Assembly: GCF_900100875.1 (NCBI RefSeq)
Contig: NZ_FNKQ01000001.1
Span: 1-64,000 of the forward strand
Direction: 5' to 3'
Origin: Halopelagius longus
GTDB lineage: Archaea; Halobacteriota; Halobacteria; Halobacteriales; Haloferacaceae
Length of the DNA: 64,000 bases
Both the position numbers and the translations under genes were made by a program. The notes beneath the pieces were generated by a model, which was given only the letters and a program-made list of their open reading frames with translations, ran no database searches and was not told the DNA's origin. Of the stretch, positions 40,608 to 46,721 are shown piece by piece. The first letter of the stretch is position 1, and each line of letters opens with the position of its first letter.

Positions 40608-40728
40608 GGACCCGACGGGATTTGAACCTCGGTCGCTCGCTTCGCTCGCTCCCTGTTTCAAATCCCGCGGCTGTCGCTACTTCGCTCCTCACGTTCGTCG
40701 CAGAAGTAGCGGACCCGACGGGCATTCG
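40608..40728 (-). repeat. tRNA-derived att-like site beside integrase (right copy of the repeat)
   Basis: On the minus strand GGTTCAAATCCCGTCGGGTCC (40608-40628) is the T-loop and acceptor 3' end of a tRNA. The word GGACCCGACGGG occurs twice, at 40608-40619 and 40711-40722. Between them lie AAATCCCGCGGCTG and two GCTCGCTTCGCTCGC-type hairpins. No complete tRNA is present and the T-stem is mismatched. Placed 100 bases before the integrase gene, it is a likely attachment site or its remnant. Confidence 0.55.
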
Positions 40729-40777: not shown

Positions 40778-40829
40778 GCGACTCACACCCGAGCCGTCTC
40801 CGTCTCACGTGATTCGACCACGAAGAGAC

Positions 40830-41843
40830 ATGACCCTCGAACCACTCGAACCAGAAGAAGCAGTCGAACTGTACCTCCAAGACAGAAAAAGCGAACTCGC
40901 GAAGTCCACCCAATACGCACACTCCTCTCGCTTGGGGCACTTCGTCCGTTGGTGCAACGAACAAGGAATCGACAATCTGAACGAGCTAACTGGACGGAAG
41001 TTACACCGATACCGGCTCTGGCGACGAGCAGATGGGAACCTCGCACCGCCGACGGAGAAATCACAGATGGACACGCTTCGCGTGTTCATCCGATGGTGCG
41101 GAACTATCGACGCAGTCCCTACTGATCTCTGGTCGAAGGTCGTCTCACCGAGTCTCTCCGAAGGTGAGAACTCTCGGGACGTGATGGTAGATTCAGAGGT
41201 CGCAAAGGGTATTCTCGAATATCTCTCCACGTACGAATACGCATCCGAACGCCACGTTACATTCCATCTGATGTGGCATGCACTACTTCGGAGAGGGGCT
41301 GTTCGCGCTTTGGACTTGGAGGATTACGACTCTGAAGAGATGTCCCTCGACGTTCGACATCGCCCAGAAACAGAAACGCCGATTAAGAATAAACACAACG
41401 GAGAGAGGTTCATAGCGCTCTCTTCAGAGACGTGTACAGTACTCGATGCATGGATAGAAGATCGACGTCCTGACTCGGTTGATGAATATGGTCGAAACCC
41501 CATGCTTTCCACTTCACAGGGGAGAGCACATCTAACGACGATACAAAGTTACATCTATTCGATTACTCGGCCCTGTACGTATGACAAGGACTGTCCCCAT
41601 GACCGAGAGATCTCTGAATGCAAAGCCGCTGCGATGAGGAGTTCTGCATCAACATGTCCGTCATCACTCTCACCACACGCTGTTCGTCGTGGTGCAATCA
41701 CCCATTGGCTAAATTCGGATGTTCCTGAGCAGGTAGTGAGTGCAAGAGCAAACGTATCACCGGCAGTCTTGGACGAGCACTATGACCGACGAACAGAACG
41801 AGAGAAGATGGAACAACGGCGGAGGTATCTTGATAATGTCTGA
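40830..41843 (+). CDS. Tyrosine recombinase / integrase 1
   Basis: A 337-aa integrase. Residues 1-95 are the SAM-like core-binding domain (VELYLQDRKSELAKSTQYAH). Catalytic positions: Arg in ALLRRGAVRAL (about 158-160), His-x-x-Arg in SPHAVRRGAITHW (about 292-295), and the nucleophile in DEHYDRR (Tyr near 320). A Cys/His insertion (CTYDKDCPHDREISEC) is shared with integrase 2 and typical of haloarchaeal integrases. Adjacent att-like site supports site-specific integration. First gene of the A/T-richer island. Confidence 0.9.
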   Translation: MTLEPLEPEEAVELYLQDRKSELAKSTQYAHSSRLGHFVRWCNEQGIDNLNELTGRKLHRYRLWRRADGNLAPPTEKSQMDTLRVFIRWCGTIDAVPTDLWSKVVSPSLSEGENSRDVMVDSEVAKGILEYLSTYEYASERHVTFHLMWHALLRRGAVRALDLEDYDSEEMSLDVRHRPETETPIKNKHNGERFIALSSETCTVLDAWIEDRRPDSVDEYGRNPMLSTSQGRAHLTTIQSYIYSITRPCTYDKDCPHDREISECKAAAMRSSASTCPSSLSPHAVRRGAITHWLNSDVPEQVVSARANVSPAVLDEHYDRRTEREKMEQRRRYLDNV

Positions 41844-41930: not shown

Positions 41931-43430
41931 TTACCTCAATGCAGCCTCGACCTTCTTCGCTTCTTTTATTATTTTCTCGGTATTCTCTATCCACTCTTGC
42001 TCTGAATCATCTGGGAAATACTCACGGTGCAGATGTCTGCCAATTTCCTCCGCAGTATAATTTGGATTCGCCCAGTCAGTCAATCGATCAATCTCGAATA
42101 CGGTTTTAATACCTTCGTTGTTCTCAATGAGTACTTCCTTCTGATCCGAAGGGAGGTTCGGTAGAAAGAGATTCAGCGGGAGTACGCTCAGCAGTTCATC
42201 TGTGGAGAGATGGGACTCAATGAGTTTTTCTCGGAGATTTAGTGTTGCTGCTACCTCACCTGTAGTCAGTAAGCCCCGGGATTCAATTCCTCTGAGGATG
42301 TTTCCTGAGGGTTCCGACTTCTCGTACCGCTGTTTGAAGATTGAACCACCCTCAAATTTCGCTCTGTGAATAGAAAGGACACCGTCTGCCTGATGTTTCT
42401 CAAATGGCTCCTTGACAAAATTATCATAGAACTCCTCTGTTTCCCAATTCTCATCGCAAACGCACAGAGTAAGGCTGGTCATCCCGGCGTTCAACATCAT
42501 AGATCCAGTATACACGCTCTCACCTTCAGCGAGAACAGCCTGCTTGATGTCATCTATAATCTCAGTATCATTCTGAATTTCGTTGATGAGGATGAAGTAG
42601 TGAGTTTTGTCTGTTAGAACATAGTTCAGTTCCTCTTCAAGTTCAATAAGCGCCTGCTGTATTCCAAACTGGCTCAACTTCCCTGCATCATACAGTTGGG
42701 CTAGTGTGTTTCGGTATTCCGCTTCTTCCTTGCGTTCTGAAGTCAAAAGAGAGATGATTTGCTCCTTATGTAGATACTCGTGGATGAACCTTGTCTCGAA
42801 ACAGGTAGTATCCATGAATTCCTCATTGTGAGGTTCAATATCGTACGGTTCAGGCTCACCACAGAGCAGTTGGTATGCTCCCCATGCGAGGCGGACATCA
42901 TCTTCTGTTGGACGGACAAGACTGAACCGTTGGAGACTTGACTGAAGTTTTTGAGTTAATGAGGTTCGTTCGTGGTTCTCAAGAGAGAAATCGGATTCTT
43001 CTTCGAGGTATATGTAGAGAAGCGCGAGGTAGATATCTTCTTCAGTTTCTTCCTCTAGTTGGATAACAGACTCTGCATAATTTATCAGATTCTCAGACCC
43101 GAGTTCCTCCAACTCCAAGAAGTCCTGTTCAAATTTCGCCTCAAAGGATCGGAGACTCTGATTGAATTCCTTAGTTCGTTCTCTGAGTTGGTCTCGATTT
43201 TTAGCAGACTGCCACCGATCTATGAGATCCCTATATTTAGGGAGTATATTCACAAGAACTACTAAGACAGCCAGTAATGCCGGTGAGAGAATAGACAAGT
43301 AAGTCAAGGACGCCAATATTGGAACTAATACTATGTCCAGAATCAGGTAGACATAGTTGTGTTTTAGAAACGTGACGAGTCCCATATTACTGGGTAGGTG
43401 GTATACGTGAATAATCAAGTAACTTATCAT
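41931..43430 (-). CDS. Large membrane-anchored protein of unknown family
   Basis: A 499-aa protein. Two or three hydrophobic segments lie at about 28-65 (YLILDIVLVPILASLTYLSI; ALLAVLVVLVNILP), then a long, Glu-rich helical region (ERTKEFNQSLRSFEAKFEQDF) and a mixed alpha/beta C-terminal part (VLTDKTHYFILINEIQND). Codon use is much more A/T than in the chromosome. No catalytic motif recognised. Between two integrases, it is cargo: an immunity or surface-exclusion role is possible but only a guess. Confidence 0.7.
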   Translation of the reverse strand: MISYLIIHVYHLPSNMGLVTFLKHNYVYLILDIVLVPILASLTYLSILSPALLAVLVVLVNILPKYRDLIDRWQSAKNRDQLRERTKEFNQSLRSFEAKFEQDFLELEELGSENLINYAESVIQLEEETEEDIYLALLYIYLEEESDFSLENHERTSLTQKLQSSLQRFSLVRPTEDDVRLAWGAYQLLCGEPEPYDIEPHNEEFMDTTCFETRFIHEYLHKEQIISLLTSERKEEAEYRNTLAQLYDAGKLSQFGIQQALIELEEELNYVLTDKTHYFILINEIQNDTEIIDDIKQAVLAEGESVYTGSMMLNAGMTSLTLCVCDENWETEEFYDNFVKEPFEKHQADGVLSIHRAKFEGGSIFKQRYEKSEPSGNILRGIESRGLLTTGEVAATLNLREKLIESHLSTDELLSVLPLNLFLPNLPSDQKEVLIENNEGIKTVFEIDRLTDWANPNYTAEEIGRHLHREYFPDDSEQEWIENTEKIIKEAKKVEAALR

Positions 43431-43699
43431 ACTAGTCTACCAACTTGATGGATATCTAAGCGCTCTCTTTCTCGTGTACGATGGAAAATCATCTGGATAG
43501 ATTCTCTTCGAACAAATAGTATATATCGTGATGTGAGCGTGAAAGAGAAATCAAGGAGGATCCACAGAAGGAAACTTCAGAAGTTGACTGCGTCTTTTCT
43601 GAGAGTAGTGTTTCGGAAAAATCTCCTACCAGTAATGTCGAGGAGATTAGATAGTTTGTGGAACCTACGGTTTTTATGAATCTGTTCTTAACTAACAGT

Positions 43700-43845
43700 T
43701 GCATTCGCTTGCTAAGGCGACGACGCAAGCGGATCAAAGTCCGACTGGCCTGCCCACCCTTCCAAAGTTGACAGGCCTTTCGGACTAACACGCCCCAAGG
43801 TGGAAGCGCACTCGGAGATCCACAGCAGTGTGGACTCTCCAGATG
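43700..43845 (-). ncRNA. Candidate structured RNA with three strong stem-loops
   Basis: Three helices follow each other. C: 43814-43823 with 43830-43840 (10 bp, one bulge). B: 43738-43744 with 43780-43786 (7 bp) plus 43747-43752 with 43772-43777 (6 bp), closing a 19-base loop. A: 43706-43712 with 43725-43731 (7 bp). All are perfect or nearly so and GC-rich inside an A/T-rich gap. A TATA-like box at 43864-43873 on the minus strand would start transcription near 43842, at the foot of helix C. The protein frame covering it is unlike a halo protein. Family unknown. Confidence 0.5.
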
Positions 43846-43863
43846 TGGCTTACCGCTCATACT

Positions 43864-43873
43864 GTATAATTAT
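43864..43873 (-). promoter_or_regulatory. TATA-like box for the structured RNA
   Basis: ATAATTATAC on the minus strand, preceded by GC-rich CCCGCCC. The spacing of about 25 bases to the first stem-loop fits archaeal promoters. Confidence 0.4.
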
Positions 43874-44014
43874 GGGCGGGTCAAAGGCCGCTTCTGCGTT
43901 GGGTGAACATCACTAGCCGAATCTGTCGCAGCCTCATGAAAGATACATCTAAACTCAACGCTCGCAGCAGGGTCGTAGTGGTCGCAGATCAGGAGGTAGC
44001 TCAGGAGGTTCTCG

Positions 44015-45160
44015 ATGAGTAGCCAACAAACCCAACCGGAGATCACTCAGGAACAACTCCTACGGGCAATCCAAAGAGAGAATATATCAGAGGACCTCCA
44101 ATCGATCTCGCCTGAAGAGGCCATTGAGTTCTACTTCGACGATCGGTCCCGAGACCTCGCACCGAATACAAAGAGAGTTCACCGATCGGCCCTCCGCTTC
44201 TTCAAACGATGGTGCTCCGAACAGGGTATTGAGAATCTCAATGACCTCACAAGCCGTGACTTAAGCAAGTATCGTAGCTGGAGACGAGACGAAGCTACGA
44301 CAAAAGTTGATTCACTAAGTAAGTCCTCTGAAGAGTCTCAAATGAACATAATCCGCTCATTCATTCAGGTATGTGAGCGGATTGATGCAGTTGAGAGTGG
44401 GCTTCACAAAGACGTCCCTTTCCCAGACATGGACGAGGGTGATGATGTCTGCCTTGATGAAGTGAGTTACGAGCGCGTCTCAGAGATATTAGGATACCTT
44501 CGGGAGCACGAGTACGCCAAGCGCGGGCATGTTGTATGGGAGGTCATGGCTGAGACTGGTCTGCGAACTGGGGCTATACACTCTTTGGATATCTGTGATT
44601 ACAAAACCGGTAAAGAACAGGACTACCTTCGTCTCCGCCATCGACCAGAGAGCGGAACATCTCTGAAGAATGGCGCAAAGAGCGAGCGATATGTTGCCAT
44701 CAGCGATCAGGTACGTACTGTAATTGATGACTACCTGTTGGAAAACTACCCAGACGCAGAGGAGAAGTACAAGGATGAGTACGGTCGAGAACCTCTATTA
44801 AGTGCTGGACAGGGTCGGATCTGCCGGTCCACGCTCAGAAAATACGTCTATATGTGGACGCGCCCTTGTGAGATCGGAAAGGAATGTCCTCATAATAGAG
44901 ATAAACGCAATTGCGAAGCGACTGACAACGATGCTGCATCAAAGTGCGGGTCCAGTAAGGCACCCCATACGGTTCGAACAGGGTACATTACTCACCTACT
45001 GGGTTCAGGCGTTAACGCCTCGTGCGTTAGCAGTAGGTGTGATGTTACTGAGGATGTGATGGGAACCCATTACGATACTCGAGACGAATACGACAAGATG
45101 GTTACTCGCCAACAAGCGCTAAAAAGTACTGAACCAGATGACAATGGTTCTAATCCCTAA
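44015..45160 (+). CDS. Tyrosine recombinase / integrase 2
   Basis: A 381-aa integrase related to integrase 1. Core-binding domain at about 35-130; Arg in AETGLRTGAIHSL (about 187), His-x-x-Arg in APHTVRTGYITHLL (about 318-321), Tyr in MGTHYDTRDEYDK (about 350). It shares the CEIGKECPHNRDKRNC insertion. It is preceded by CAGGAGGT eight bases before the ATG, a strong Shine-Dalgarno sequence, unlike most genes here. Two integrases 3 kb apart suggest nested or tandem elements. Confidence 0.9.
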   Translation: MSSQQTQPEITQEQLLRAIQRENISEDLQSISPEEAIEFYFDDRSRDLAPNTKRVHRSALRFFKRWCSEQGIENLNDLTSRDLSKYRSWRRDEATTKVDSLSKSSEESQMNIIRSFIQVCERIDAVESGLHKDVPFPDMDEGDDVCLDEVSYERVSEILGYLREHEYAKRGHVVWEVMAETGLRTGAIHSLDICDYKTGKEQDYLRLRHRPESGTSLKNGAKSERYVAISDQVRTVIDDYLLENYPDAEEKYKDEYGREPLLSAGQGRICRSTLRKYVYMWTRPCEIGKECPHNRDKRNCEATDNDAASKCGSSKAPHTVRTGYITHLLGSGVNASCVSSRCDVTEDVMGTHYDTRDEYDKMVTRQQALKSTEPDDNGSNP

Positions 45161-46114: not shown

Positions 46115-46465
46115 CGGTAAGGGGTGAGAGCGGCTGAGATATAACTCCGTACGAGGGGTGGGTACGTATCTACGTTCGCCCGCGTTGTTCGCTGAACGTA
46201 CACCCTATATCCAAAGTGTATAATCTTCGTTCTCCGCCGTTCTGAGTGCCCTACACCGGTTTCGTGTTTTCACTTTGGATACGGTAGTAGTTCCGGAACC
46301 GCCGGTTTTGGTGAGGGATGAGGGTGAGATGTAACTCCATACGAGGGGTGGTTGTTCACTTCCACTCGTCCTCGACCACCGTGAGACACCCCACATCCAA
46401 AGTGTATAATCTCTATTTTCTAGTGTTCTGGGCCTCCTACTTCGATTCCGCGTTTTCATGTTGGG
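46115..46465. repeat. Imperfect tandem repeat, unit about 186-190 bp
   Basis: Two head-to-tail copies. Matching anchors: CTCCGTACGAGGGGTGG at 46145 and CTCCATACGAGGGGTGG at 46335; ATCCAAAGTGTATAATCT at 46209 and 46395; GTTTTCA near each end. AGTGTATAATC could be a plus-strand TATA box. On the minus strand the copies read as KTRNRxRxxRTxENxDYTLW, but no start or stable frame supports a protein. Flanking parts are less conserved. Confidence 0.6.
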
Positions 46466-46721
46466 TTCGGCAAGGAGTGTTTCGGAACGAACGTGCGGAC
46501 GCCGATGAGTCGGTCGCTGAGTCTGTCATACGTCCACACATTCCGTCTCTGAGGTTCGCCCCTTCGATGGGTCGTAGTACATATTTCTCACTTCGACCGC
46601 TGAGAGCGCGTTCCACGGCCTCTGCTGAGGGGTAGGCGACGCCGTCGACGATGTACTCGTTTCAAATGTCTCCGTTTTCGTTCCGGTGGACCCGAGCGAC
46701 AACTCGAGGACGCTCACTCAT
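46437..46721 (-). pseudogene. Small gene with in-frame stop at codon 20
   Basis: The frame begins MSERPRVVARVHRNENGDI, meets TGA, and continues NEYIVDGVAYPSAEAVERAL and LRPIEGANLRDGMCG to a TAG at 46437. Both halves look like one acidic halo protein of about 94 residues; the stop (GACATTTGAAAC) seems a point mutation. A restart is unlikely because no ATG follows closely. Third in line after two small overlapping genes. Confidence 0.55.

Follow-up and report, generated by a model that had tools for sequence, protein, structure and literature searches.

Analysis of the window, that is, the whole stretch of 64,000 nucleotides (positions 1-64000 of contig 1 of a 3.87 Mb host genome that is 99.8%-complete), revealed a GC-rich non-coding segment at 43700-43858 that folds into three tandem hairpins. 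It lies between the start of a 499-aa gene on the minus strand and the operon of the tyrosine recombinase IntA on the plus strand. The reading we prefer, with a probability of about 0.45, is that the segment forms a structured 5' leader, or a short non-coding RNA, of the integrase operon on the plus strand; the function so assigned is a prediction, and the segment only a candidate for it.

Fold and predicted promoter of the segment

The features of the segment and of the genes that follow it are given below.

43671..43677, plus strand: TATA-like box TTTTTAT, centred about 27 nt ahead of 43701; putative promoter
43700..43858, plus strand: GC-rich non-coding segment with three tandem hairpins; RNA z -5.7 on the plus and -3.6 on the minus strand
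43703..43734, plus strand: hairpin 1, 10 bp with a 12-nt loop TAAGGCGACGAC and one G-U pair (arms 43703-43712/43725-43734); z -3.2
43738..43786, plus strand: hairpin 2, 7+6 bp of Watson-Crick pairs only, interrupted by a 2x2 internal loop and capped by a 19-nt apical loop (arms 43738-43752/43772-43786)
43799..43857, plus strand: hairpin 3, imperfect stem of about 18-19 bp with small bulges and a tetraloop at 43825-43828 (arms 43799-43824/43829-43857); z -4.6
43852..43881, no strand: hairpin 4, an inverted repeat ACCGCTCATA...TATGGGCGGGT read from the sequence; alternative fold
43936..44022, plus strand: 28-codon ORF; its stop overlaps the start of IntA (ATGAGTAG)
44015..45160, plus strand: IntA, SNJ2-type tyrosine recombinase (Pfam PF00589), downstream of the hairpins

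Folded as RNA, the plus strand of 43700-43858 reached -71.4 kcal/mol, which none of 1500 dinucleotide-preserving shuffles equalled, while the minus strand reached -71.0 kcal/mol and was equalled by 3 of 1500. A scan of both strands in 1596 windows of 159 nt showed the segment to be the strongest fold in the 64 kb, the next best window having a z of -5.2; each window was set against 20 shuffles and the position of the segment was chosen by hand, which tilts the ranking slightly towards it. The segment has a G+C content of 58%, compared with 39% for the 270 bases to its left. Its codon score is below zero in each of the six frames, whereas genuine genes of the element have positive scores in the frame that they use. 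In the hairpins 45 of the 48 pairs are Watson-Crick. A minus-strand ORF at 43489-43860 (123 aa, basic) was rejected as a gene, having neither a family nor a codon signal.

The initial annotation had described a compact, strongly folded RNA at this position, and the fold, the shuffles and the lack of a coding signal confirm that description. Its helices of 10 and 13 bp were recovered, the latter as 7+6 bp, while its third helix of 7 bp proved to be part of the longer stem of hairpin 3. Its overall reading was thus partly retained: the folded segment outside the Rfam families stands, a regulatory or element-maintenance RNA is still a candidate, and the omega-RNA and the minus-strand promoter, considered below, do not hold.

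The box TTTTTAT at 43671 is the sole TTTWWWW site on the plus strand from 43432 to 44014, and the usual spacing of 27 nt places a predicted start at about 43701, just before hairpin 1. Haloarchaeal TATA motifs are of the TTWT type (PMC4983044). The chance of a TTTWWWW site in a given 7-nt window is about 0.4% of placements in the element and, as an estimate, roughly 3% at the composition of the gap itself; the BRE consensus CGAAA is poorly matched at this box. When the segment was folded as DNA the two strands were nearly equal (z -4.6 and -4.2), and the strand preference therefore rests on the RNA energies and the TATA position and is not proof.

The 28-codon ORF has the top codon score among the scored stretches, and AGGAGGT motifs are found ahead of IntA. 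Since the small ORF overlaps the IntA start and these motifs are present, the gene order fits a leadered message of the small ORF and IntA. Transcription of the plus strand would begin from the box at 43671, and the RNA would be either the structured start of this leader or a short non-coding RNA ending ahead of the 28-codon ORF. The hairpins may then set the amount of integrase through stabilisation of the message, attenuation or binding of a protein, and control at the level of the integrase would help the element to stay quietly integrated. Several points count against the leader or short-RNA reading: no poly-T terminator-like site was found, IntA could be driven from a second TATA-like site, at 43865, with no need of the hairpins, these are just as good when taken as DNA inverted repeats, and in haloarchaea structured leaders are said not to be typical (PMC4983044). 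Hairpin 4 flanks the A/T-rich stretch TATAATTAT (43865-43873) and overlaps the foot of hairpin 3, the slightly wider region 43845-43885 having a z of -3.1; it may serve as an operator surrounding a second IntA promoter, or form a part of that promoter.

The integrated element and its integrases

The G+C content of the window drops from about 65% to 45-55% starting at about 40.6 kb, and the element is A/T-richer than its host, in line with the initial annotation. The landmarks of this element, other than those listed above, are as follows.

40608-40628: attL, which duplicates 21 bp of the tRNA-Arg(CCG) 3' end
40809..41843, plus strand: IntB, second SNJ2-type integrase, beside the left attachment site; 46% identity to the SNJ2 integrase
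41931..43430, minus strand: 499-aa cargo gene, divergent from the hairpin segment
68544-68616 (contig position, outside the window): attR, the intact tRNA-Arg(CCG) gene

Because a copy of the tRNA-Arg(CCG) 3' end is present at 40608 and the intact tRNA gene at 68544, the island is an integrated element of about 28 kb, which extends about 4.6 kb past the end of the window. The sequence GGACCCGACGGG is present twice at the left end of the element, at 40608 and 40711. The element carries the two tyrosine recombinases IntB and IntA with the 499-aa gene between them, and further genes code for ParB-like, ParA-like, HicA-type toxin, CoiA-like and type IIG restriction-methylation proteins and a TBP. 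Two copies of an 85-nt direct repeat (46200-46284 and 46386-46470), 73% identical and spaced by 186 bp, lie where the element has no clear genes.

The 499-aa protein has a hydrophobic N-terminus and matches in 8 of 391 haloarchaeal genomes, its own genome included, while searches against Pfam, PHROG and PADLOC gave no match. A relative with 77% identity was identified in genome G293, where the DNA similarity ends at the gene boundaries and the flanks are unrelated. It is possibly an uncharacterised defence or cargo gene.

IntA shares 38% identity with the SNJ2 integrase and has relatives in 349 of the 391 haloarchaeal genomes, the top-listed ones being about 44-52% identical and the best about 52%. 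In several homologous loci the slot of the 28-codon ORF is occupied by what reads like a small RHH-like (ribbon-helix-helix) protein, judging from sequence. In many haloarchaeal genomes SNJ2-type integrases of the IntA family occur as tail-to-tail pairs, adjacent or several kb apart (examples are loci L021, L028 and L029 and genomes G093, G140, G155, G135, G318, G415 and G333), and such pairs look like a recurrent two-recombinase element. IntB and IntA of the window, unlike those pairs, have the same orientation and a cargo gene between them.

Search for relatives of the segment

We asked whether the segment belongs to a known RNA family. Scanning of 43400-44100 against Rfam 15 with cmscan at E values up to 5 gave chance eukaryotic families only, and the full window at gathering scores gave 5S rRNA and tRNA-Cys only; the earlier statement that the RNA resembles neither tRNA, SRP RNA nor RNase P RNA is borne out, as no Rfam 15 family matches. 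R1, a covariance model derived from this one sequence, matched only itself in its own genome. The covariance search proposed in the initial annotation was carried out with R1 across 391 haloarchaeal genomes representing a sample of the class, and across 125 and 146 genomes of two further families; no relative was found in these overlapping sets, over 500 relatives of the host in all, and because stricter filters were applied to the large sets, remote relatives may have escaped detection. R1 likewise found no relative beside the integrase in the loci of 29 IntA homologues, which were drawn from the 391 haloarchaeal genomes; integrase searches in collections of genome contigs and viral contigs yielded none that could be used.

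Searches with blastn in 170 genomes of the family gave two short matches in apparently coding DNA, taken as chance, and a distant blastn search of plasmids and phages gave no match to the segment. Searching GTDB genomes and viral contigs for the exact patterns of the hairpins yielded nothing relevant; five viral matches to the pattern of hairpin 3 were discarded, being unsupported by the covariance model. No shared fold was seen upstream of the IntA homologues. The minimum z upstream of 30 integrases (the 29 homologues and IntB) was about the minimum of some 16 random windows, so a structured leader was rejected as a general trait of the IntA family; the few outliers among these 30 upstream regions include two that contain tRNA 3' ends. 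The segment was also rejected as an attachment site, since it has no second copy in the genome and the real att repeat is at 40608 and 68545.

The segment is a singleton, which accompanies neither IntA nor the 499-aa gene in the genomes searched. Confidence in any reading is limited for this reason, and as no homologue was found the RNA reading has no support from covariation.

Alternative explanations and comparison with known systems

The main rival, which we hold possible though not probable, is that the hairpins act as inverted repeats in double-stranded DNA, either as operators at which repressors of the IntA promoter bind or as arm-type sites for the integrase and accessory proteins. The almost fully Watson-Crick pairing, the near equality of the two strands as DNA, the recombinase gene directly downstream and the bracketing of the TATA-like TATAATTAT by hairpin 4 are all consistent with it. 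However, repeated binding sites would have arms copied from one hairpin to the next, which is not the case here, and no such direct repeats were found; the stems, that of hairpin 3 above all, are long for operators, and RNA folding favours one strand. A non-coding RNA from the minus strand, the reading of the initial annotation, has a slim chance: that strand folds too, and hairpin 2 is better there (z -5.6 against -4.5 on the plus strand), but the fold of the whole segment is weaker than on the plus strand. The minus-strand TATA box, thought to lie at the right distance at about 43865-43873, predicts a start at about 43840, inside hairpin 3, and the transcript would be without one arm of this hairpin, which makes the minus-strand reading doubtful. 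An equally slim chance is given to a fold arisen by accident, or to the remnant of a decayed gene or insertion without present function. The segment is known from one genome only, and the loss from the integrase slot of the RHH-like gene of several homologues indicates that the region was rearranged; against this, three adjacent stems are each far beyond the shuffles, and decay would erode pairing and not preserve it. The suggestion of an omega-type guide RNA or a remnant of an IS200/605 end draws on the compact folded shape within a mobile element and on nothing else. This suggestion is hardly credible, since a search for the zinc-ribbon/nuclease domain PF07282, positive in 8 of 14 controls with Haloferax volcanii among them, detected no TnpB, linked or elsewhere, in the 99.8%-complete genome. 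There is moreover no second copy of the RNA in the genome, no relative at IS ends and no match in the 391 genomes of haloarchaea, a group where TnpB is common.

An origin of replication, of the rolling-circle or single-strand type, is an improbable reading of the segment; an initiator would then recognise hairpins formed by one particular DNA strand, as happens in SNJ2-type viruses. In those viruses the hairpin origin lies downstream of the Rep-Arvir gene, and Rep-Arvir origins, too, have strong hairpins in tandem within a short non-coding region, in elements with SNJ2 integrases (PMC13107129). The published tandem-hairpin pattern was reproduced on seven records (SNJ2, HHPV4, pL6B, HGPV1, HRPV11, PL23 and Harhisp1), to which the region downstream of the Rep-Arvir gene of the host genome itself was added; the stretch of HRPV9, too short to judge, is outside these eight regions. 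All eight contain a hairpin with a TAAG loop and a varying stem, often after larger hairpins, and hairpins comparable to those of the segment were found in HHPV4, HGPV1 and Harhisp1. Hairpin 1 holds the element's one copy of GCTAAGGC, an 8-mer from the SNJ2 nick hairpin, but this is weak as evidence, being expected by chance at an estimated 4% or so. The element is without a Rep-Arvir gene, no recognised initiator was found among its ORFs tested, the 15-bp core GTGTGGCTAAGGCCA is absent from it at up to 3 mismatches, the GTGTG-stem-TAAG-stem nick hairpin is absent from the segment, and the segment lies between two gene starts and not downstream of a rep gene. On these sequence comparisons the segment as a Rep-Arvir origin is not supported, and the origin reading is retained as an improbable rival in the form of an origin for some other initiator.

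The sole Rep-Arvir gene of the genome is on contig 1 at 763620-765017, far from the element, and its product is 32% identical to RepSNJ2. Downstream of it is the hairpin CCCTAAGAGGG, which agrees with the published origin in its TAAG loop, and two further integrases are located near 787539-789553 on the same contig. In the Rep-Arvir nick hairpin the stem changes are compensatory (GGC/GCC, GCC/GGC, GCT/AGC and CCC/GGG) round a constant TAAG loop, which lends support to the published model.

Should the segment be a leader RNA, as we prefer, it would represent control of site-specific recombination at the RNA level in a group, the haloarchaea, whose use of structured leaders for regulation is thought rare; should it be a DNA site, it would be an operator, recombination or replication element that has so far gone unrecognised in elements with SNJ2 integrases. 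That a strongly structured leader controls an archaeal integrase, and hence the switch between the integrated and excised states, is advanced very tentatively and is on balance unlikely; such a leader would be of a type without described relatives, in archaea among which structured leaders are held rare.

Among the known systems, the omega RNA of IS200/605 TnpB is alike in being a compact folded RNA in a mobile element and differs in its TnpB, which is missing here. The Rep-Arvir origins of betapleolipoviruses (SNJ2, HHPV4, HGPV1) share with the segment the tandem strong hairpins, the short non-coding stretch and an integrase of the SNJ2 family, whereas the segment has no GTGTG-stem-TAAG-stem hairpin, no rep gene upstream and no Rep-Arvir in its element. 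The structured 5' leaders and small RNAs of Haloferax volcanii are comparable in that the predicted start here falls 27 nt after a TATA-like box and a long leader is possible; none of the Haloferax leaders plotted is over 250 nt (PMC4983044). The SNJ2 integrase operon, made up of the integrase and small accessory genes, differs from the present one in that here the accessory ORF has 28 codons, a second integrase is nearby and a hairpin cluster is present, no comparable cluster having been found upstream in the homologous loci searched; the two operons are alike in their SNJ2-type integrase, in the small ORF overlapping its start and in the position of the element at the 3' end of a tRNA gene.
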